In this document: positions 37,213 to 47,902 of the stretch, in pieces
Layout of the letters: each line of letters starts with the position of its first letter
Numbering within the stretch: the stretch's first letter is position 1
NCBI GenBank assembly: GCA_008933615.1
Contig: WBUR01000028.1
Span: forward strand, 1-54,742
Direction of reading: 5' to 3'
DNA from: a bacterium
GTDB taxonomy: Bacteria; CLD3; SB21
Length of the DNA: 54,742 nucleotides
Position numbers and translations under genes: made by a program
The notes under the pieces: model-generated
The model's database searches: none
What the model was told of the DNA's origin: nothing
The model's input: the letters and a program-made list of their open reading frames with translations, nothing else

Positions 37213-39600
37213 TTACTTCGGATTACCGATCATCACATACGGCGCCCAGAAAAACGGGTGAATGTGAAAATCGCCTTTTCTGATCAGCGCGATCTGCGCC
37301 TGACGCATAGCTTCGGCTTTCGTAAGCCCTTTTTTTAGCCCGTCATAGAAATTGATCATGATGATCTTCGTTGACTCGTCGTCCACCGGCCACAGCGTAG
37401 CAACTATCGTGGGCGAACCCGCAATGGCAAATGCGCGCGATAAGCTGATCAGTTCCACACCGGTTGCGCTTTTGCCCATCGACGTATTGCAGGCGGATAA
37501 TACGATAAGTTCATTTGCATCTTTCAGAGGCAGTTTCAGGATTTCACTGATGGTCAATTTATCGTCTTCGTTTTTTGCCGCGTTAGGGGCCATAAGTAAA
37601 AAGGACTTCTGCGGCTCATCGCTCGAGAGAAATCCGTGCGTTGCAAAATGGACCACGTCCGTCGTTCCGGCAAGTTGTTTGGCTTTGTCTTTGGTTGCTT
37701 CCAGATTCTTGTACAATTTAGCATTCGTATAGGACGCCTGGATCACCTTTGCTTCTTCTTCCGCGCCGGGTAAACTTCCGTCAGGATTGCCAAATACCAG
37801 CACATTCGAAATGCCTTTTGATTTTTTCTTCGAAACCAGATCCATCAGCGTTGCGGCTGTAAGGTAATTCACCGCTTTTTTCTCTACCAGAAAACTGATA
37901 TCGCCGTCTTTCGTTTCCGTTGCGAGACACTGGAATGGAATGTAATATAAACTTGCCGCCGGAATGATCGTCACGTTCTTGATCTTGTCGTCTTTGATAT
38001 TATCCCAGACAGGCAAGATCAGGTAGTCGGACAATTGAACCATAATATCACGAAGCGGCTTAGAGTGCCGTTCGTAAAACCGATCGTCGCCGCCCGGTTT
38101 CCAGTTGGCCATCTTGGTATCAAACCGGCCGCGCTTCATCAGCGAGGTCACATCGTTGATATAATAGCGGAACTTATTGACCAGTGAATCAAGTTGTGTG
38201 GCCGCAACGGGTACCGATTTCGCTTCGATCTTATCTTTGGTGATCATGAATATATACAAGGCATCGTCGGCAGGAAAATACTGAAGCAGGACCACGTCGT
38301 CATCGAGCTGTTTCTGTAAGTCGCTGAGTTGGATCGGATCAACTTTGATCACCTGGTAAATATTGGGATATTTCGTTTCCAGGTCGATCATCAACGCATT
38401 AAAATCACCCTGACTTTGCGTAAGCGTTTTGCTCAGATTATCAATTTTGCTTAAATCCTGTTTGTCGGCCGGTTTCGCTTTTTCTTCGGCTAACTGCTTC
38501 TGCAAATCTTCATTTTGTTTTTGAAGATCCTGAATTTTGTCTAATTTCTTTTGTTCGTTCTTGTCCGTGACCTGCAGTTTAGTAGCGTTCAGGACATCGT
38601 TGGACATTTTCGCTTTGCTGCGTTCAATATACTGGAAAGCTTCGGCGTTATTGCCCGCTTGTTTTAACAAGGAAATTAATTTTCGGTAAACCGGATTCTT
38701 GTCTTTCAAAAAGCTGTCGAAGAATTCCTTGTTGGTGAAATTGCCGCGCATGCTTTCAATGTGCTCAACCGATTTTTTCAGAGCGGTAATAGCATTCTGG
38801 CGGTCGGCGGCGGCTTTCTGATCGTCGCCCAGAATTTGACTTTCCTTCATTGCGCTTTCATAAAGCGTTCCAATGAAAGAATACGTCCGCCACAATCCTT
38901 CACGGTCACCGATCTCTTCCAGAATGCCCGCGCTGCGCTGATATAATTTCAATGCGCTGGCCTGATCTCCGATTTTCATATTCAACCGGGCCATATTGGC
39001 AAGATCGTACGCAATGCCGCCTTTGGAATTAATTTCTGTGTGCAGCTTCAACGCTCTATTCAAATAATCGGTGGCTTCGTCATAAAACTCGCCTTCAAAA
39101 TACATGGTGGAAATATTGGTCAGGTCGTTTCCTACGCCGACTTTATCTTTAAGTTGTTCGTGATACTGCATGGCTTTAGTGTGGAAGGCGATGATTTTTC
39201 CGATGTCGTCCAGCGTGAGTTTTTTATTTTGCTGTCGGGCTTCGGCTTCCTTTACGCGAAATGAAGAAATGCCCCAATTGGCCAACGCGCTCGCGGCGCC
39301 GGATTTATTGCCGGTCTGCAAAAATTGCGTGACGGCCTCATTAAAATATCCCGCTGCTTTTGCGTGCTGATTCAAAATCTGATGCAGTAATCCGAGATAA
39401 TTATTAGCGTCACCCATCTTTGCTTTATTCTGGGCTGCCGTGTAGGCTGACAGAGCGGAATTAAAAGAAGTGACCGCTTGTTCGTATTGGCCGTTTTCAT
39501 AGGCAGCGACTCCGTTCCTAAAATCGGTGTCTCCGTTTTGAGAAAATGCCATCGAGGTGACGGCGAAAAGACAGACGATGGTGGTGAACAGTTTATTCAT
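37213..39600 (-). CDS. Secreted TPR-CHAT protease
   Basis: A 795-residue protein with signal peptide MNKLFTTIVCLFAVTSMAFS. Residues about 25-330 are TPR repeats (for example FRNGVAAYENGQYEQAVTSFNSAL); 345-405 is a coiled coil (QDLQKQNEDLQKQ). From about 470 the CHAT caspase-like domain has catalytic His655 in VVHFATHGFLSS and Cys704 in LIVLSACNTSMGK, with the WPVDDESTKIIM and HPFFWAPYVMIG endings. The dyad is intact, so it should cleave peptides. The signal peptide separates it from cytosolic CHAT effectors such as those of type III-E CRISPR. It is the last gene of a unit with the LPP20-C and lipoprotein genes. Target unknown. Confidence 0.9.
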   Translation of the reverse strand: MNKLFTTIVCLFAVTSMAFSQNGDTDFRNGVAAYENGQYEQAVTSFNSALSAYTAAQNKAKMGDANNYLGLLHQILNQHAKAAGYFNEAVTQFLQTGNKSGAASALANWGISSFRVKEAEARQQNKKLTLDDIGKIIAFHTKAMQYHEQLKDKVGVGNDLTNISTMYFEGEFYDEATDYLNRALKLHTEINSKGGIAYDLANMARLNMKIGDQASALKLYQRSAGILEEIGDREGLWRTYSFIGTLYESAMKESQILGDDQKAAADRQNAITALKKSVEHIESMRGNFTNKEFFDSFLKDKNPVYRKLISLLKQAGNNAEAFQYIERSKAKMSNDVLNATKLQVTDKNEQKKLDKIQDLQKQNEDLQKQLAEEKAKPADKQDLSKIDNLSKTLTQSQGDFNALMIDLETKYPNIYQVIKVDPIQLSDLQKQLDDDVVLLQYFPADDALYIFMITKDKIEAKSVPVAATQLDSLVNKFRYYINDVTSLMKRGRFDTKMANWKPGGDDRFYERHSKPLRDIMVQLSDYLILPVWDNIKDDKIKNVTIIPAASLYYIPFQCLATETKDGDISFLVEKKAVNYLTAATLMDLVSKKKSKGISNVLVFGNPDGSLPGAEEEAKVIQASYTNAKLYKNLEATKDKAKQLAGTTDVVHFATHGFLSSDEPQKSFLLMAPNAAKNEDDKLTISEILKLPLKDANELIVLSACNTSMGKSATGVELISLSRAFAIAGSPTIVATLWPVDDESTKIIMINFYDGLKKGLTKAEAMRQAQIALIRKGDFHIHPFFWAPYVMIGNPK

Positions 39601-39659: not shown

Positions 39660-40274
39660 CTAACTTGGTATGGTAAGCAGCTTTTTTTTCTCCGCCATAA
39701 AGAACTCATGAAAGTTCTTTTTGAACGATTCCTCAGCGCCTTCTTTCAGGTAATGTGATTTGGTGCCGACGGTTACAACAGCCGTCTCGATCACATCGTA
39801 CCCGGCCATGAGCGGCATTTCCATATACGCAAATGTCGTATCTTCTTTTTGGGACCTTTTGTATTCGGAAACGGAACTGCCTTTGAGCTGAATACTTTCT
39901 TTTCCAAAATATTCTATTATGCCTTTGGCAAATGCCGCCGTATCAAGGTCTCCGGCAAAGAGATCTTTCTGAATGACGGAGAATTCTCTCATCAGCAGAA
40001 CGGCGTCATGGGTCAGGGCCTTTATGATATCGACGCGTCCTTTAAGTTCCGCCTGTGAACGCGCCGTCGATTCCATTTTCAAGACGGAAACGCCGACTCC
40101 TTCATACACCAGGTCATCCATCGTGGTTTCCGATTTTTCGGTGGTTTCTGTAGATTCAGAAACTTCTTTTTTTTCAGCCGCTTCTTCTTTTTTGACATCT
40201 TGTTTTTTTGCCTCGCCGCAATTCAAGGAGAACAAGGTGAAAACGAACGAAAACATCCACGTAATTTGTTTCAT
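39660..40274 (-). CDS. LPP20-like lipoprotein
   Basis: A 204-residue protein with a lipobox ending FSLNC (Cys19), followed by a charged linker of Lys, Glu and Thr (about 20-50). The rest begins LVYEGVGVSVLKMESTARSQAELKGRVDIIKAL and ends with FAYMEMPL and VTVGTKSHYL strands, the same order (GVGV, A-rich helix, YA strand) as the LPP20 domains in neighbouring genes, though without YWPP. It follows gene 40298-41866 by 23 bases and precedes the CHAT gene by 59, so these three are one transcript. Assigned by pattern, not by close identity. Confidence 0.65.
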   Translation of the reverse strand: MKQITWMFSFVFTLFSLNCGEAKKQDVKKEEAAEKKEVSESTETTEKSETTMDDLVYEGVGVSVLKMESTARSQAELKGRVDIIKALTHDAVLLMREFSVIQKDLFAGDLDTAAFAKGIIEYFGKESIQLKGSSVSEYKRSQKEDTTFAYMEMPLMAGYDVIETAVVTVGTKSHYLKEGAEESFKKNFHEFFMAEKKKLLTIPS

Positions 40275-40297: not shown

Positions 40298-41866
40298 CTA
40301 TTTGAGTGCTTTGTTTAATCCTTCGAGGATCTCTTTGGACGCTTCTTTGCTCAAATTGGTTAAAGCAATGATACCCGCTTTTTCAGCGGCGCCGATCGAG
40401 ATGCCTTTGACCTGCTGTTTGTCGCTGTTGGCGATGGTCTTACCCGTCTCCAGATCGATAGCGCGAATGGAACAACTTGCCCATGCGGATACACGGTTAC
40501 TTGATCCGCCGCCGTAGGGATTAGTGGAGCCACCGACCGATTCCATCGCTTTCACGTTGCCGATAATAAGCACGTCGGCGACGCTTTTCAATGCGGCCGA
40601 TACGGCGTCATCGTTACTGCTTTCCGCGGAAGCCTTAGCCTGCTCACGGCTCACGGCCTTGTACACTTCATTTTTGTCAATGACCTTGAATTTGTTGGAG
40701 ACCAATTGTTTTACAATATCGCCTTCAACGATGGAGTTGGCCTGTTCTTTCCCGATATTTTCTTCAAAAAGTAATATGACGATTTTTGTGATGGCGGAAC
40801 CTTTGGCGGTGAAAGTAAACTCCTTAAACACTAATTTTGCTTTTTCGACCGCGCCGGGGAGTTGCTGCCTGAAGGCTTCAAAATCTTTTAAGTTTAGTCC
40901 GATTTTGACTTTGTTAACGCCGCTGGGATTTACAGATTCCACGGAATGAACGGTAAATTTTGCAAGTCCTTCGCCGTCGGCTTGCGCTTCTTCATCGGCT
41001 TTGACCACGGTGGGCGCAACGGAGGATGAAACTAAATTGGCATTTTTAACGGCCGAGACGACGCCGTTATTATCATAGACAAGTTTGGCAACGAGCGGCT
41101 GTGCCAGCGGCTCGCCTTTGACGCCGCGCTGTCCGTCGCCGCCGGCGATCTCAACGCGCATTTTTCCGAGTAAGTTTTTCAATTTCGTGTCAAAACTTGC
41201 TTTGATCGAAACCTTTGCTCCGGTTCCTTCAATATCGCCTTCGATCGGCTCTTTATTGATCATTTCCGCCAAAACAACTTCCTTTGCGCCGGCAAGATAC
41301 TGGCTCAACGCGAGATAATAATCGCCGGTGGATTCAGCTGATTTGCCGGACTGATAATACGTTTTTGCGATATTAACCGCTTTTTTTAATCGTTCTGCAA
41401 ATTGTCTTTCCACTTCGGCAATGGAAATTTCGCAGTAGGCATAATGCTTTTTACCTTTTTTCTCGTCTCGGTGAAACTGAACTTTGAGGTTTTTTAACGT
41501 CTCGCTGGAAAACGACTCGGTAACTTCGTTGAAACTTTCCGACATAGAACTCGCTCCGCCCACGGTCGTTTCCTCGACCACATTGGTTACTTTGTTTGTA
41601 ATTTCGGAACGGATCGCACGAACGACCATGGCGCGCGCATCGGCTTCCGCCTTGTTGGCGTCGTCCGATTGATTTTTTGTAACGGGCACTGCGCCTAATC
41701 CCTGATAATACCCGTCTTTGATCGGCATATTCGGTAAACTTTTTATCCAATCGCCGCCGCCGCCTTTGGATCCTTTAGCGTTTTTCTTTTGTGCCGCGGT
41801 ATCTCCCGCGGGTAAAAGCATCAGTGCCATGATGATAACCGATAACATCATCGATAACTTTTTCAT
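40298..41866 (-). CDS. Exported LPP20 protein with C-terminal CsgG/FlgO-like domain
   Basis: A 522-residue protein. The signal peptide runs to DTAAQ. An LPP20-like domain at about 35-160 (DWIKSLPNMPIKDGYYQGLGAV, then ANKAEADARAMVVRAI) is followed by a helical region with YYQSGKSAESTGDYYLALSQYLAGAKEV, a beta-rich middle domain, and a C-terminal domain (about 345-522) with VFKEF, FKVIDKNEVYKAVSREQ, VADVLIIGNVKA and AIDLETGKTIAN, which match CsgG/FlgO/LpoB-type folds. ATG 41866 is used because AGGAGG precedes it by eight bases; a TTG two codons earlier would overlap that site. This architecture recalls FlgT-type proteins, but no flagellar genes are here. Confidence 0.75.
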   Translation of the reverse strand: MKKLSMMLSVIIMALMLLPAGDTAAQKKNAKGSKGGGGDWIKSLPNMPIKDGYYQGLGAVPVTKNQSDDANKAEADARAMVVRAIRSEITNKVTNVVEETTVGGASSMSESFNEVTESFSSETLKNLKVQFHRDEKKGKKHYAYCEISIAEVERQFAERLKKAVNIAKTYYQSGKSAESTGDYYLALSQYLAGAKEVVLAEMINKEPIEGDIEGTGAKVSIKASFDTKLKNLLGKMRVEIAGGDGQRGVKGEPLAQPLVAKLVYDNNGVVSAVKNANLVSSSVAPTVVKADEEAQADGEGLAKFTVHSVESVNPSGVNKVKIGLNLKDFEAFRQQLPGAVEKAKLVFKEFTFTAKGSAITKIVILLFEENIGKEQANSIVEGDIVKQLVSNKFKVIDKNEVYKAVSREQAKASAESSNDDAVSAALKSVADVLIIGNVKAMESVGGSTNPYGGGSSNRVSAWASCSIRAIDLETGKTIANSDKQQVKGISIGAAEKAGIIALTNLSKEASKEILEGLNKALK

Positions 41867-42194
41867 TGACAATTCCTCCTTAGTGAATGAGACCTATATA
41901 GATTATTGCAGTTAAATTTAGTTTTGTATGTATCGCAGCAACAAGAAATTAGAAATGAAAAATTAGAAATCAAAAAAACAAATTAAAAATTAGAAAATTA
42001 CAGGACTATTTTTTTCTGATCGGCCTCGTGTCATACTGAAAGAATCTTTTTTGAGTAAAGCAAAATCTATAATTCAAAAAAGATTCTTTCAGAATGACAA
42101 CCACCTCGGGTTAGTTCATTTAATCCACAAAATTCCCCGATGCCTTTACCGGTTTTGTCTTCAAAAGCTATTTCTATCGCAGAAATAAAGTTCA
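41867..42194. other. Intergenic region with low-complexity stretch and palindrome
   Basis: This 328-base gap lies between two minus-strand genes. It holds an A-rich stretch at 41943-42000 in which AAATTAGAAA recurs several times, then the large palindrome 42029-42099. AT-rich sequence with no open frame fills the rest. The promoter for the gene at 40298-41866 should be in this gap. Confidence 0.45.
42029..42099. repeat. Large near-perfect palindrome with CTGAAAGAATCTTTT arms
   Basis: Two 26-base arms (42029-42054 and 42074-42099) pair with one mismatch around a 19-base loop; each arm contains CTGAAAGAATCTTTTTTGA. A related core (CATTCTGAA...GAATCTT) is a known interspersed palindrome in FCB genomes. 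It lies between two LPP20 genes. Confidence 0.8.
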
Positions 42195-43718
42195 TCAGTC
42201 TAACTGATCAAGCGCTGCGTTGAGTTTTTCAAGAGCCGCCTTGGCGCTTTCACGCCCGGATGATAATATTTTTTGTGCATTATCTTCCTGCGAAGTTGCT
42301 TCAGGAACTTTTATGGTTTGCGATGCTTTCCGTTTTATTTTTGCAAGCATGCCGCCGGTGTAAAGCCGCGACAAGGCATAAAACGTTTGTTTGCCGGCCT
42401 TATCCGTTGCAACAAAAGTGGCCATGATCTGCGAGCCTTCCAGAGAAACATCGGTGGCCTCTTTTGTTATTTCCGACATGTAATCGTTGAGAGGTTCGCC
42501 CCCGAATGAACTGCCCTCAGATTCAATCCAGGTTTTGGTAATGTTTTCGATCTGAACGCCGATCGTTTTGGCTAACTTTGTTCGAGCCGATTCTTTAGCT
42601 TTTTCAATTCCTTTTGTTTGCGAAAAATATTTCCCTTCATCCATACCTACGGCAAATACGGCGCCTTTGTCTTTTGGAATTTTGTTGATCCACACCGGAT
42701 ATCCGTTTTGCATCTTCAAATAATCACGATTGATCAATTTTCCTAACTTGTCACTCAGGCCTTTGAGTTTTTTCGGATCTTTAACTTTTTCTTTGGCCTT
42801 CTCATTTACGTGACTGATCACCTGCGATAACGACATGCGTGTTAGCGCGTAATGCCATTTTGAACTTCTATCATACCAGGTTTCGACAATCTGGGAGCCG
42901 CTGAGCGTTGCTTCAGAAACGGAATTGGTCATTTCTTCGATAAAACTTTGTCCGGCGGCGCCCGACGCTTCGCCGGAATTAACCTCATACCAGTCGGTGA
43001 GTATGGCCTGAACTTCGCTTTTGATCGTTTGCCCCAATTCACCCCGTGATTTATCTTTTGCGGCTTCTCGGCCGTTCACATAAAAATAATAACCTTCGGC
43101 AATGCCTACGGCGTAGATGGCGTCGTCCTCTTCGGGAAGCGCTTTGATCCAATCCGGCTTGTCTTTCCGAACGTACGACTTTGGATCTTTTAAGCCTTTT
43201 AAGGAAACTTCTAATTTCTCAATTTTTTTTGGATCTTTCTTACCGGCAGTTTTTTTAGCTTCGTCGACCACTTTCTTTTGGATAGCGCTGACCGCGCCTG
43301 CGAGCGGCAATTCGGCAAGTGCATACGTCAGACCTTCAGGGTCCACCCATGTTTCCAGAATTTTGGCATTTTGCACGGAGGCAAGAACGTCTTCATCAAT
43401 ACTTTTTTCGAGCGAAGATACTAAACCTGAAGCCGAGGAGCCCGACCATGTGCTGGTAATTGTTTTGACGTTCACTTTGATCGTTTGAGCGAGTTCCGCT
43501 CTGGCTGATTGCGCCGCCGCTTCTTCGCCGGCTTTTTTGTCAAAATACCGGTTTACCATTCCGACGGCAAAGATGGAACCCGGGGACATCGGCAACTCAT
43601 TTACCCATTTGGGCGCATCTTTTTTCCCGGTTTCCTTGCTCTGCGAATAGACCGGGCTGCTGCTCAGGGCTATGATCAGAAATAATTTTATCAGGCCATG
43701 TTCAGAGCCGATATACAT
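42195..43718 (-). CDS. Exported protein with three tandem LPP20 domains
   Basis: A 507-residue protein. ATG 43718 is set by GGAGGAGAGATC just upstream and starts a signal peptide ending SSPVYSQ. Three domains of the same kind follow at about 36-145, 187-300 and 340-455: each opens with W(V/I)NxxP or WIKALP, then AVG(M/I), a helix with A.(S/K).RAELAQTI or GELGQTIK, and a strand near YAL(A/T/S)xLxL. LPP20 proteins in Helicobacter and the flagellar FlgP are outer-membrane lipoproteins; this one lacks a lipobox. The C-terminal helix (ESAKAALEKLNAALDQLD) resembles the tails of the neighbouring genes. The tandem copies are diverged, so the triplication is old. Confidence 0.82.
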   Translation of the reverse strand: MYIGSEHGLIKLFLIIALSSSPVYSQSKETGKKDAPKWVNELPMSPGSIFAVGMVNRYFDKKAGEEAAAQSARAELAQTIKVNVKTITSTWSGSSASGLVSSLEKSIDEDVLASVQNAKILETWVDPEGLTYALAELPLAGAVSAIQKKVVDEAKKTAGKKDPKKIEKLEVSLKGLKDPKSYVRKDKPDWIKALPEEDDAIYAVGIAEGYYFYVNGREAAKDKSRGELGQTIKSEVQAILTDWYEVNSGEASGAAGQSFIEEMTNSVSEATLSGSQIVETWYDRSSKWHYALTRMSLSQVISHVNEKAKEKVKDPKKLKGLSDKLGKLINRDYLKMQNGYPVWINKIPKDKGAVFAVGMDEGKYFSQTKGIEKAKESARTKLAKTIGVQIENITKTWIESEGSSFGGEPLNDYMSEITKEATDVSLEGSQIMATFVATDKAGKQTFYALSRLYTGGMLAKIKRKASQTIKVPEATSQEDNAQKILSSGRESAKAALEKLNAALDQLD

Positions 43719-43849
43719 GATCTCTCCTCCTTCAGTGGTAACGCTGGACAAGATGATAAGAGCGGGGACACATCTAAAAAGTGAGATTTTATAGTAAAAG
43801 AATCAATAGTTAATACCATTCAGTAAGAATGCTCCGCTGATAACCACTA

Positions 43850-43961
43850 GCCCACGAAACACACGAAATAACACAGAAAAAATTAAACTAGAATCTACAA
43901 TCAAAAAATAGAGTGACAATCCATAAAAAAATTTTTGTGTCCGTTCTTGTATTCTGTGGGC
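43850..43961. repeat. Imperfect inverted repeat of CCACGAAA type, copy 2
   Basis: The left arm starts GCCCACGAAACACACGAAA at 43850 and the right arm ends TTGTATTCTGTGGGC at 43961, so the ends pair as an imperfect stem with an AT-rich middle. The motif CCACGAAA followed by CACGAAA is shared with 994-1079, and the shape with 49070-49129. It lies just past the stop of the CsgG-LPP20 gene 43971-45074. Confidence 0.5.
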
Positions 43962-43970
43962 AACGAGCCC

Positions 43971-45074
43971 TTAATTCGGCGATTGTTCCCATTTGCCAAT
44001 CGCTTTGTCGAGAGCCTTCAATGCATCTTCCGCGCTGGCTTTTACGGCCTTTATCCGTTTTTTAGCAATATCGGATTGTACTTTTTTCTTAAACTCATCC
44101 ACCAAAGATTCTTTCTTTAAAACGACTTTGGCGTAAAATTTGAATTTAGTGTCCGATTTTTTTTTGGCAGATAATTTAAACTTTTGCGGTTTTTCTGTGT
44201 ACGGCGGCCAATAATCTTCAGCGGCAGAATTTTTCATAACTGTATTAGTGATACTTTCCTTGATTTTCTCAAAATATTCCTTCGCTACTACTATTTTGTT
44301 TCTATCATCGATAGTTCCAACTTCTTCGATAAAACTTGTTGTCAGGTTTTTGATATATGTCTGAATCATTTCTTCTATGTATTCACGACCGTTTTCTTCG
44401 GCTTGTATTATTGCTTTTTGCGCATCGGTACTCTCTCCTACCCCTACCCCGACAAAAATATTACCATACAGACCGCTTCTTGAAAGCCATTCGGGCATTT
44501 CGCTCTTTTCCGCCGACACACCGCCGCTTTCATCTACTGTTTTCCTAGTCGATACTGACGAATTTTTATCAGTCAAAGTCTTGGTAGTTGTTTTAGCCGG
44601 AGCTGTTTTACCCGATACTGTATATGCCAAGGCTTCGATCATGTCGAGTAGACCTTCTTTTTTCCCTTCATAATTCTCGGATTTAGTTCTAACAATCTTA
44701 CCGGTAGTTACATCAATAATTCGAATATCAATGGTATAAACCTGCCCAAATTGACCTACTTTTCCGGCAACCATGAGTTCCACTCCTAACAGTTGTCCAA
44801 TCTGGATCGCACACTCTGCGGAATTGCAATTGTCCGTCATGGTGAAGTCTTGAGCTTTCAGGATTGCATCCATTTTCTCTCGTTCCAATACCGTATAAAC
44901 GTCAGTATTGACAAGATAATTGTTAAAACGGTCGGTTAGAATGGAAATTTCATTCTGATCAACTCCACCGGAATTTACAAAATTCAATACGGCTATAGTA
45001 CTCTTCTTTTCCTGCGCAAATGCACTTGTCCACAGAGCACCACAAAACATGATTAGAACGTAATAATTTTTCAT
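43971..45074 (-). CDS. Exported CsgG-like/LPP20 fusion protein, copy B
   Basis: A 367-residue protein. Signal peptide MKNYYVLIMFCGALWTSAFA, then a CsgG/LpoB-like domain at about 24-160 (STIAVLNF, YTVLEREKMDAIL, LGVELMVAGKVGQFGQVYTIDIRIID), a Thr/Ser/Lys linker, and an LPP20 domain at about 190-320 (PEWLSRSGLYGNIFVGVGVGE, TTSFIEE, DYWPP, KFYAKVVLKKE). The tail ends ALDKAIGKWEQSPN. Its first 180 residues are nearly identical to those of copy A, only two residues apart; the LPP20 parts differ strongly. 33 bases follow copy A. Probably exported to the periplasm; no lipobox. Confidence 0.82.
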   Translation of the reverse strand: MKNYYVLIMFCGALWTSAFAQEKKSTIAVLNFVNSGGVDQNEISILTDRFNNYLVNTDVYTVLEREKMDAILKAQDFTMTDNCNSAECAIQIGQLLGVELMVAGKVGQFGQVYTIDIRIIDVTTGKIVRTKSENYEGKKEGLLDMIEALAYTVSGKTAPAKTTTKTLTDKNSSVSTRKTVDESGGVSAEKSEMPEWLSRSGLYGNIFVGVGVGESTDAQKAIIQAEENGREYIEEMIQTYIKNLTTSFIEEVGTIDDRNKIVVAKEYFEKIKESITNTVMKNSAAEDYWPPYTEKPQKFKLSAKKKSDTKFKFYAKVVLKKESLVDEFKKKVQSDIAKKRIKAVKASAEDALKALDKAIGKWEQSPN

Positions 45075-46356
45075 ATGAATTTTCCAATCTGAACATGTAT
45101 GGTGAAATTAATTGTCCAGCGACTGTTCCCATTGCCCGATGGCTTTGTCTAGAGCCTTCAATGCATCTTCCGCATTGGCTTTTACAGCCTTTATCCGTTT
45201 TTCAGCAATATCGGATTGAACTTTTTTCTTGAATTCGTCAGCCAAAGATTCTTTCTTTAAAACAATTTTCGCGTAAAATTTGATTCGATTACCTGTCATT
45301 TCGCCGTTAGGTGGCCAATAGTCCATTACGCTAGCCTGTTTTAACAACGCCTTAGTAATACCTTTAATAATTTCTTGAAAATATTGTTGTGTGGTGACAT
45401 CAGTTATTTTTTCTTCGCCTATCGCGCTGACTTCTTCCATAAAATTGGATGTAAGGTCTTTGATCATCTTTTGAATCGTTTCTTCAATTTTCTTTCGACC
45501 AGCAATCTGTGCTCGACTTTTACCAATTTGGACTGATGTGCCTTCACCAATTCCAACACCTATAATGACCCTGTCATATAATCCTGTTTTCGAAATCCAG
45601 CTTGGAATTCCGTCGGTTAATGTTGATTCCTCGTCAACATAATTAGTTGTTTTCCTAGTCGATACTGACGAATTTTTATCAGTCAAAGTCTTGGTAGTTG
45701 TGTTAGCCGGAGCTGTTTTACCCGATACTGTATATGCCAAGGCTTCGATCATGTCGAGTAGACCTTCTTTTTTCCCTTCATAATTCTCGGATTTAGTTCT
45801 AATAATCTTACCGGTAGTTACATCAATAATTCGAATATCAATGGTATAAACCTGCCCAAATTGACCTACTTTTCCGGCAACCATGAGTTCCACTCCTAGC
45901 AGTTGTCCAATCTGGATCGCACACTCTGCGGAATTGCAATTGTCCGTCATGGTGAAGTCTTGAGCTTTCAGGATTGCATCCATTTTCTCTCGTTCCAATA
46001 CCGTATAAACGTCAGTATTGACAAGATAATTGTTAAAACGGTCGGTTAGAATGGAAATTTCATTCTGATCAACTCCACCGGAATTTACAAAATTCAATAC
46101 GGCTATAGTACTCTTCTTTTCCTGCGCAAATGCACTTGTCCACAGAGCACCACAAAACATGATTAGAACGTAATAATTTTTCATATGAATTTTCCAATCT
46201 GAACATGTATGGTGAAATTAATTGTCCAGCGACTGTTCCCATTGCCCGATGGCTTTGTCTAGAGCCTTCAATGCATCTTCCGCATTGGCTTTTACGGCCT
46301 TTATCCGTTTTTCAGCAATATCGGATTGAACTTTTTTCTTGAATTCATCGGCCAAA
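44538..46356 (-). repeat. Tandem duplication: 709-bp block 44538-45246 repeated at 45648-46356
   Basis: The two copies are spaced 1,110 bases apart and differ at only six positions that I could find (44592, 44693, 44789, 45186, 45237 and 45240 in copy B). Each block covers the start half of a CsgG-LPP20 gene, the upstream intergenic spacer and the C-terminal part of the preceding LPP20 gene. Before 44538 and after 45246 the identity drops sharply. This shows recent unequal crossing-over or gene conversion. Confidence 0.95.
45108..46184 (-). CDS. Exported CsgG-like/LPP20 fusion protein, copy A
   Basis: A 358-residue paralogue of the next gene downstream. The signal peptide and CsgG/LpoB-like domain are the same as in copy B except at two positions. 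The LPP20 domain (PSWISKTGLYDRVIIGVGIGE, SNFMEEVSAI, MDYWPPNGE) is its own version. The tail ADEFKKKVQSDIAEKRIKAV, ending ALDKAIGQWEQSLDN, is identical in protein sequence to the tail of the lipoprotein gene 46218-46808. The gene lies 33 bases after that lipoprotein and 33 bases before copy B. Expected location: periplasm. Confidence 0.82.
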   Translation of the reverse strand: MKNYYVLIMFCGALWTSAFAQEKKSTIAVLNFVNSGGVDQNEISILTDRFNNYLVNTDVYTVLEREKMDAILKAQDFTMTDNCNSAECAIQIGQLLGVELMVAGKVGQFGQVYTIDIRIIDVTTGKIIRTKSENYEGKKEGLLDMIEALAYTVSGKTAPANTTTKTLTDKNSSVSTRKTTNYVDEESTLTDGIPSWISKTGLYDRVIIGVGIGEGTSVQIGKSRAQIAGRKKIEETIQKMIKDLTSNFMEEVSAIGEEKITDVTTQQYFQEIIKGITKALLKQASVMDYWPPNGEMTGNRIKFYAKIVLKKESLADEFKKKVQSDIAEKRIKAVKANAEDALKALDKAIGQWEQSLDN

Positions 46357-46808
46357 ACTTCTTTTTTGAAAACGACTTTGGCGTAAAATTTATAACGATT
46401 ATCCGTTTTTTCGCCGTAGGGCGGCCAGTATTCTTCTACAGCTGCGCCTTTTACCAATACATCGGTGATACTTTGCGTGATTTCCTGAAAATATTCCTGC
46501 GCGGCGGCTGTTTTGCTTTTTTCATCGATCGTGCCGGCTTCTTCCATAAAATTAGTTGTCAGGCTCTTAATTTGCGTCTGGATCGTTTCTGCAATACGTT
46601 TACGGCCGTTAAGGTCGGCCTGCGATTTTGCCTTTTGCTCGCTTAATCCCTCGCCGATTCCCACGCCGATAATAATATCTTCATACAAACCGGCCTTGGA
46701 AATCCACTCGGGAGCTTTGTTCTTGTCGGTAGATCCGCTGCCGCCGGCGCATCCTGTCATTGCAAACATTACGATCGAAAAAACGAATAGCTGAAAATTC
46801 TGTTTCAT
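46218..46808 (-). CDS. LPP20-domain lipoprotein
   Basis: A 196-residue lipoprotein (lipobox AMTGC, Cys20). One LPP20 domain fills most of it: PEWISKAGLYEDIIIGVGIGE, GRKRIAETIQTQIKSLTTNFMEE, YFQEIT, EEYWPPYGE, and RYKFYAKVVFKKE. The C-terminal helix (IKAVKANAEDALKALDKAIGQ) is shared with three other genes. It is the lipid-anchored member of the set and likely sits at the outer membrane. It is first of a three-gene unit (with copies A and B), started after the terminator at 46840-46879. Confidence 0.85.
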   Translation of the reverse strand: MKQNFQLFVFSIVMFAMTGCAGGSGSTDKNKAPEWISKAGLYEDIIIGVGIGEGLSEQKAKSQADLNGRKRIAETIQTQIKSLTTNFMEEAGTIDEKSKTAAAQEYFQEITQSITDVLVKGAAVEEYWPPYGEKTDNRYKFYAKVVFKKEVLADEFKKKVQSDIAEKRIKAVKANAEDALKALDKAIGQWEQSLDN

Positions 46809-46839
46809 ATGGTTTCCTATCGTATTTTGATGGTTTTAA

Positions 46840-46879
46840 AAAAAAATAACCGTAGTCCCGATACGCCAGGACTACGGTT
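46840..46879 (-). terminator. Rho-independent terminator after the first LPP20 gene, minus strand
   Basis: AACCGTAGTCC (46848-46858) and GGACTACGGTT (46869-46879) form a perfect 11-bp stem with a 10-base loop. On the minus strand it is followed by a T-rich run. It separates gene 46902-47564 from the lipoprotein gene downstream. Confidence 0.9.
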
Positions 46880-46901
46880 TTCTGTTTAACAGGTCACAAG
46901 C

Positions 46902-47564
46902 TTATTCTACAGCTTCTTCGCCTTCGTCAGAACTGATAGGGCCATTGTTGCTCGTCTTTTCCCATTTTTCAATGGCTTTATCGAGCGCGCCTAAAGCATC
47001 TTCAGCAGACGCTTTGACACCGGCGATTTTCTTTTTGGCAATTCCATCCGCCATTTGCTTCTTATATTCGTCGATCAGAACGGATTTCTTTAACACCATT
47101 TTGGCGTAAACTTTATATTTTCCGTTCGTGCCTTTTTCCAGAGGGCGGCCCGGCCAATATTCTTCGGCTTTAGAGCCTTCCAAATATTGTTTTGTCATAC
47201 CGGTTGTAATTTCAGAAAAGTACTGCTGAGCGGCTCCGCTTTCGCCTTCTTCAGTCGTTGTGCTGGCTTCTTCCATGAAATTAGTGCTTAAACTCTTAAT
47301 TTCAGTTCCGAGCGTAGCTGCAATCTGTTTACGTCCGTCTAGTTCAGAACGGCTGATCGCTATGTTTTCGCTCGTGGCTTCGCCGACACCGGCTGCAACG
47401 ATCACATCTTCATACAGGCCCGGTTTGTTGATCCATTCCGGAGTGGAATTTTTCTTCTTTTTTTTCTTTCCTTTCTTTTGAGCCATGGCGTCATTGCTCA
47501 TTAATGAGAATGATAGTAATGCCACGAAAGAGTAAAAAAGTATTTGACCTAAATACCTTTTCAT
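46902..47564 (-). CDS. Exported LPP20-domain protein
   Basis: A 220-residue protein with signal peptide ending MSNDAMAQ, then an unusual basic stretch (KKGKKKKKKNS), then an LPP20 domain: PEWINKPGLYEDVIVAAGVGE, GRKQIAATLGTEIKSLSTNFMEE, YFSEIT, EEYWPGRP, and KYKVYAKMVLKKS. The helical tail (IAGVKASAEDALGALDKAIEKWE) precedes an acidic C-terminus. AAGGAGG precedes the start by seven bases. It is the first gene of the locus and has its own terminator, so it is probably expressed alone. Confidence 0.85.
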   Translation of the reverse strand: MKRYLGQILFYSFVALLSFSLMSNDAMAQKKGKKKKKKNSTPEWINKPGLYEDVIVAAGVGEATSENIAISRSELDGRKQIAATLGTEIKSLSTNFMEEASTTTEEGESGAAQQYFSEITTGMTKQYLEGSKAEEYWPGRPLEKGTNGKYKVYAKMVLKKSVLIDEYKKQMADGIAKKKIAGVKASAEDALGALDKAIEKWEKTSNNGPISSDEGEEAVE

Positions 47565-47902
47565 ACCGTTCCTCCTTAGAGTTAAATGATGAGAGATCCT
47601 AAGAGTTTGAACAACCCTTGTTTATTTAAAAGAAAAAAATTGTTCTAAATGATATATCGTATAGCGTTAATATAAATTTTATTAAAGAGGTAAGTGATTT
47701 GAGAGTGACCTAAATTTATTTAAGGTGCTGTCCAAAGTCAAGTAAAACATTTTTCGGTTCTTTTTGATTGTTTCCTTAAAGCAGAATGAATATGGGATAG
47801 AAAAAAAAGGTAAACGGTGATAATTAAAAGTGTTATATTTTTCAATCCTTGAAGGCGGAGGGCGTATGCCGTATTTTACGGATAAGAAACCCGAAACAAC
47901 CG
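47565..47902. other. Divergent intergenic region upstream of the LPP20 locus and hemW
   Basis: A 338-base AT-rich gap between divergent genes. It should hold the promoter of the LPP20 locus and that of hemW. I see no clear operator, hairpin or open frame in it. Confidence 0.4.

Follow-up and report, generated by a model that had tools for sequence, protein, structure and literature searches.

How two adjacent genes can share almost identical front halves, together with the spacer and the end of the gene before them, while the remainder of their products differs, is the question raised by a locus on contig WBUR01000028.1. The window analysed is the whole 54,742-nucleotide stretch of this contig, and the source genome (G000) is a 97-contig, 99%-complete draft. 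The two genes, here called CL1 (45108..46184, minus strand; 358 amino acids) and CL2 (43971..45074, minus strand; 367 amino acids), encode fusions of a CsgG-type domain to an LPP20-type domain. In CL1, a CsgG/LpoB-like part at residues ~21-155 is followed by an LPP20-like part at residues ~190-358.

Comparison of 44538-45246 with 45648-46356, at an offset of 1110 bp, bore out the original prediction of a 709-bp near-identity that includes the spacer and part of the upstream gene. Exactly six of the 709 positions are mismatched (44592, 44693, 44789, 45186, 45237, and 45240), and the longest exact run covers 396 bp (44790-45185). Divergence between the copies is 0.85% of bases over the whole block, compared with about 7.5% between species, and a scan of both strands identified the block as the sole repeat of at least 40 nt in the window. 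Each copy contains the last ~139 nt of an upstream gene, a 33-bp spacer, a signal peptide, and the CsgG domain, up to codon 179. Copy 1 (45648..46356, minus strand) joins the tail of LPPB to the signal peptide, CsgG domain, and linker of CL1, and copy 2 (44538..45246, minus strand) joins the tail of CL1 to the same parts of CL2. At the left edge, which lies in the coding linker, identity drops immediately to about 50-67%; at the right edge it drops to about 74%, and then to chance level. An AlphaFold2 model of CL1 has two domains connected by a linker at residues 167-190 with pLDDT below 50, and since the block ends at codon 179, within this disordered segment, it stops at a domain boundary. 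The LPP20 remainder had been described as widely different. This is true of the middle ~400 nt, where silent sites are saturated, but not of the last ~180 nt, which encode the C-terminal helix and in which LPPB, CL1, and CL2 share 84-86% identity. Over the entire LPP20 part, CL1 and CL2 have 54% amino-acid identity.

The pair lies within an array of LPP20 genes whose order along the minus-strand transcript is LPPA, LPPB, CL1, CL2, LPP3x, LPP524, a 204-aa gene, and a TPR-CHAT gene. LPPA (46902..47564, minus strand), the first gene of the array, encodes a 220-aa LPP20-like exported protein that is 99% identical at the amino-acid level in G001, a genome of the same genus. It is followed by a strong intrinsic terminator hairpin (46848..46879, minus strand; 14 pairs and then a T run), suggesting that LPPA is transcribed apart from LPPB-CL1-CL2. 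An Rfam search of the window returned no RNA. LPPB (46218..46808, minus strand) encodes a 196-aa LPP20-like lipoprotein with the lipobox MTGC, and its last ~70 nt are unlike those of the G001 orthologue and match CL1 instead. Downstream of CL2 are LPP3x (42195..43751, minus strand), a 518-aa protein with three LPP20 domains (Pfam 4.5e-25 over three stretches), and LPP524 (40298..41872, minus strand), with one LPP20 domain and a long C-terminal part.

Other members of the neighbourhood also vary between genomes. Orthologues of LPP524 in G004, G005, and G006 (L043 5253-7457, L044 5647-7818, and L046 327-2525) have one more LPP20 domain, N-terminal and LPPB-like, than those of G000 and G001, and this is another domain gain or loss within the LPP20 array. 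The 204-aa lipoprotein-like gene (39660..40274, minus strand), a member of the conserved neighbourhood, encodes 264 amino acids in G001 (L042 1790-2584), where an internal insertion contains a direct repeat of 39835-39911. The TPR-CHAT gene (37213..39600, minus strand) closes the neighbourhood, as it does in several other genera (G004, G005, and G006), and its product has a weak match to the model of the TPR-CHAT protein Csx29.

Rates of silent change indicate that the parts of the CL genes have very different ages. The CsgG halves of CL1 and CL2 have a dS of 0.008, which represents one silent change and has a wide error, whereas G000 and G001 differ by a dS of 0.28-0.45 in HemW, LPPB, LPP3x, and LPP524. 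Between the LPP20 cores of CL1 and CL2 dS is saturated, and between these cores and LPPB it is 1.2-2.3. In the gene tails it is 0.04 for CL1 and LPPB, and 0.475 for CL1 and CL2. This contrast indicates that the LPP20 cores had separated well before the species did, and that the block came to be shared long afterwards. The proposal of a recent duplication or conversion beside diverged LPP20 parts is thus upheld, with a CsgG-half dS of 0.008 and saturated cores set against a value of ~0.3 for interspecies orthologues. Two simpler histories were rejected. The LPP20 cores are too old for a simple tandem duplication of a 1,110-bp unit, so that conversion, or unequal crossover between units with already different cores, is required. 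A recent de novo fusion from LPPB is inconsistent with the silent sites, which differ from those of LPPB by the same dS of 1.2-2.3.

Comparison with relatives reveals how the pair sits in the array. In G001 the flanks are 92.5% identical and LPPB directly adjoins LPP3x; the same adjacency is found in G003, G004, and G005, genomes of the same family in which the locus is intact and in the same order but without CL genes. Two exact 27-nt direct repeats, one on the LPPB side (46286..46312, minus strand) and one on the CL2 side (44036..44062, minus strand), are the upstream and downstream boundaries of a 2,250-bp gain or loss, and both sit within codons for the LPP20 C-terminal helix. Removal of the 2,250 bp between them reconstitutes the G001 LPPB gene in a gapless 680-bp alignment at 95% identity. 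A four-way alignment of LPP20 tails agrees: the G001 gene resembles G000 LPPB before the 27-nt identity and CL2 beyond it, the 3' tail of CL2 is the counterpart of the 3' end of LPPB in G001, and the tail of G000 LPPB is that of CL1. The gapless join at the repeats indicates gain or loss through recombination inside the C-terminal-helix codons. Two further observations were made in this comparison. The spacer 3' of CL2 (43817-43970) does not align with G001, and part of it matches short sequences on contigs C3, C60, and C24. The tract 46831-47730, which contains the LPPA gene and its flanks, is only ~1.2% diverged from G001 (dS 0.045), compared with 7-10% on either side, and was probably exchanged recently between the lineages of the two species, if it is not exceptionally conserved.

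These observations are probably best explained by homologous recombination among the tandem genes of an LPP20 array, which gained the CL pair and recently homogenized or duplicated the tail-spacer-CsgG segment. CL1 and CL2 would then be tandem CsgG-LPP20 fusions inside a conserved array, LPPA-LPPB-[CL1-CL2]-LPP3x-LPP524. Each LPP20 gene ends in near-identical codons for the C-terminal helix, and homologous recombination between these codons would have brought the pair into the array, or removed it in relatives. Later, when the cores had already diverged, a non-reciprocal event would have copied a segment of LPP20 tail, spacer, signal peptide, and CsgG domain between units, either as gene conversion or as an equivalent unequal crossover joining two units with a common segment. 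Copying may have halted within the disordered linker, at the point from which the cores begin to lose homology. General recombination of the RecA type would presumably be responsible.

The direction of the change bears on the origin of the pair. We place the gain, with probability rather than certainty, on the G000 branch as a transfer from a lower-GC relative, a comparison that uses one close genome (G001) and three distant ones; in G002, the other genome of the same genus, a contig gap covers the locus, with contig ends at window positions ~43.5 and ~48.3 kb. A tree of the LPP20 cores gives CL1 and CL2 long branches (0.63 and 0.72) beside the LPPB of the genus, with modest support (93/93), and in a tree of CsgG modules from the phylum the CL modules stand alone on a long branch, without a donor in the genus. 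Among 116 sampled genes of the genome, the two have the second and fourth lowest GC3, at 35.7 and 37.0%; this hints at horizontal gain, and it could also be drift in fast-evolving paralogues. Taken together, the core tree, GC3, and the isolated CsgG branch would favour gain from an unsampled relative of lower GC content. In the opposite direction, an old pair in the genus would have been lost from G001 when the tails of LPPB and CL2 recombined, and the G000 block would be a conversion product all the same. Such a deletion would produce precisely the LPPB gene seen in G001, and the cores did diverge before the species split, but loss seems quite unlikely given that the intact loci of G003, G004, and G005 have no such pair either, that no copy was found elsewhere in the nine genomes of the phylum, and that GC3 of the CL genes is low. 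Searches of plasmids and viral contigs identified no relative. A scan of genome contigs matched only JAEUSJ010000113.1, which is the G001 record, and two weak CsgG-like sequences.

A near-identical block in a draft might itself be an artefact of assembly or of a strain mixture, with one real CsgG-LPP20 gene, or some other copy number, and two variants misjoined through the repeat. The 396-bp exact repeat and the fragmentation of the draft allow for this. Against it, the tail variants specific to CL1 are no more than a read length away from the unique CL1 core and from the SLDN tail and spacer. Near the core, these variants continue directly into a tail and spacer of the LPPB type, which makes a second CsgG copy after CL1 likely to be real. 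The repeat also has two entrances and two exits, and LPPB-CL1-CL2 is the sole linear path that uses all edges. We therefore regard misassembly as very improbable, and the earlier judgement that an assembly error is unlikely was reasonable, except that the exact repeat could conceal collapsed copies; it is possible that there are more CL1-type units than were assembled.

If recombination in the array is the preferred explanation, it may still be asked whether CL1 and CL2 began as alleles of a single locus whose CsgG half was constant and whose LPP20 half varied between strains. The alleles would have come to lie in tandem when two chromosomes crossed over unequally, one at its CL1 tail and the other at its LPPB tail, and the 709-bp identity would be allelic identity within a species. 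This has the merit that one step accounts for the near-identical LPPB tail, spacer, and CsgG domain, as well as for the LPPB-type tail on CL1 and the old tail on CL2, at a locus that seems prone to homologous exchange (the LPPA tract, at ~1% divergence). We give it an outside chance, since it requires saturated LPP20 divergence between alleles of one species and since the cores of CL1 and CL2 retain all 32 of the 32 columns invariant across 14 relatives, which indicates conserved function rather than hypervariation. An unlikely reading takes the locus as a natural site of allele shuffling, in which a constant CsgG/LpoB-like carrier half receives strain-specific LPP20 halves, with ordinary recombination at the conserved CsgG block next to the linker and at the conserved codons of the C-terminal helix; were this so, strains would display different periplasmic LPP20 modules.

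The suggestion that a dedicated cassette or antigenic-variation system, of the pilE-pilS or vlsE type, swaps LPP20 variants onto the constant CsgG half has a probability close to nil. The constant N-terminal and differing C-terminal halves invite it, as does the presence of about ten CsgG-like N-domain proteins with unrelated C-termini in the genome. The search for the components of such a system argues otherwise: silent LPP20 copies are absent, matches to the CL1 LPP20 domain in G000 are confined to the array, and Pfam LPP20 was found on WBUR01000028.1 only. The locus has no inverted repeats, adjacent recombinase, or special sites, each CL copy is an intact gene that has a signal sequence of its own, the CsgG domain of the pair is only ~50% identical to other CsgG modules, and the LPP20 cores are conserved at the invariant columns. 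The cassette part of the original prediction is accordingly not supported. The CsgG/LpoB-like paralogues are located on contigs C3, C6, C16, C22, C25, and C31 (L004-L007 and L009-L012), a count that comprises eight sequences inspected over their full length and others that are weaker matches. Their C-termini, labelled by eye, are PEGA-like, FISUMP-like, barrel-like, or TM-ended. Such a range of partners indicates that the CsgG-like domain is promiscuous over evolutionary time.

What the fusions might do can be approached through their domains. Pfam CsgG (PF03783) matches CL1 at 1.5e-12 and CL2 at 7.9e-12, with scores for the pair of 45.4 and 47.8 bits, above the cut-off of 20.8, but the matches span only positions 6-102 of the 210 in the profile. 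The signal sequence, MKNYYVLIMFCGALWTSAFAQ, reads as lacking a lipobox, so CL1 and CL2 have neither the full profile nor the N-terminal lipobox of a CsgG curli secretion pore. Structural matches to the N-terminal domain of CL1 include LpoB, GNA1162, TolB, PelC, and CsgG (E 1.6e-7 to 1e-3), and FlgT (3w1e) also matches CL1. For LPP20 (PF02169), with a cut-off of 25.9 bits, LPP3x scores 88.3, LPPB 24.4, and CL1 16.6-20.2, and CL2 was not listed; the membership of the CL C-terminal halves in this family is sub-threshold by sequence, and their relatedness to LPPB, judged from amino-acid identities of 69% and 63% over the domain, is firm. The model of the LPP20 half has a pLDDT of 89.5, and its best PDB matches are weak (Tip-alpha, E 0.012; HP1454, E 0.047; TM ~0.3); PDB sequence searches with CL1 and with an LPP20 profile returned nothing. 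From the folds and the lipobox of LPPB we propose that the proteins may be periplasmic or associated with the outer membrane, where the LpoB/TolB-N-like domain could dock to a partner and the LPP20 domain could join an assembly with LPPA, LPPB, and LPP3x. Of 386 genomes searched, only one has the CsgG-LPP20 domain order, with no other match spanning both halves of the fusion; a G074 match covering residues 8-269 was considered as a second fusion and set aside, as by eye it has no LPP20 domain. A literature search returned no paper naming LPP20 and CsgG together, and one on gene conversion in lipoproteins yielded nothing of use.

Several known systems resemble parts of this locus. The N-terminal domain of CL1 matches the fold group of LpoB, the TolB N-domain, PelC, and CsgG, and differs from it in that the CL proteins lack a lipobox, cover about half of the CsgG profile, and are fused to LPP20. 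FlgP, Lpp20, and FlgT, which are periplasmic flagellar and outer-membrane proteins, have an SHS2-like fold in common (PMC12222027); unlike them, the CL proteins place a CsgG/TolB-N-like domain first and score below the Pfam cut-off for LPP20, and no flagellar genes were noted in the window. A constant N-terminal region with differing C-terminal regions recalls the CdiA/Rhs polymorphic toxins (PMC3150448), from which the CL proteins differ in having C-termini that are homologous and conserved at key residues. Pfam identified no toxin family, there is no immunity gene, and the genes downstream are conserved LPP20 genes. A further parallel is the lpl cluster of Staphylococcus aureus (PMC4470592), an example of tandem lipoprotein paralogues in arrays with unequal crossing-over or gene conversion. 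Both consist of tandem, exported, lipoprotein-type paralogues with content that varies between genomes and with homogenized segments beside diverged ones. The CL locus differs from lpl in its protein families, in its two-domain fusion, in a homogenized tract that crosses a gene boundary, and in crossovers that fall in the C-terminal helix. With its sharp edges between young and old segments, and its change in copy number between relatives at junctions in shared sequence, the CL locus is well supported as ordinary homologous recombination within an array of tandem paralogues, and it reveals no new mechanism of recombination. It provides a clean and datable example, in an uncharacterized bacterial lineage and a rare domain fusion, of how exported multi-domain paralogues are gained, lost, and homogenized when homologous recombination falls at the conserved edges of modules, which here are the C-terminal helix and a disordered linker.
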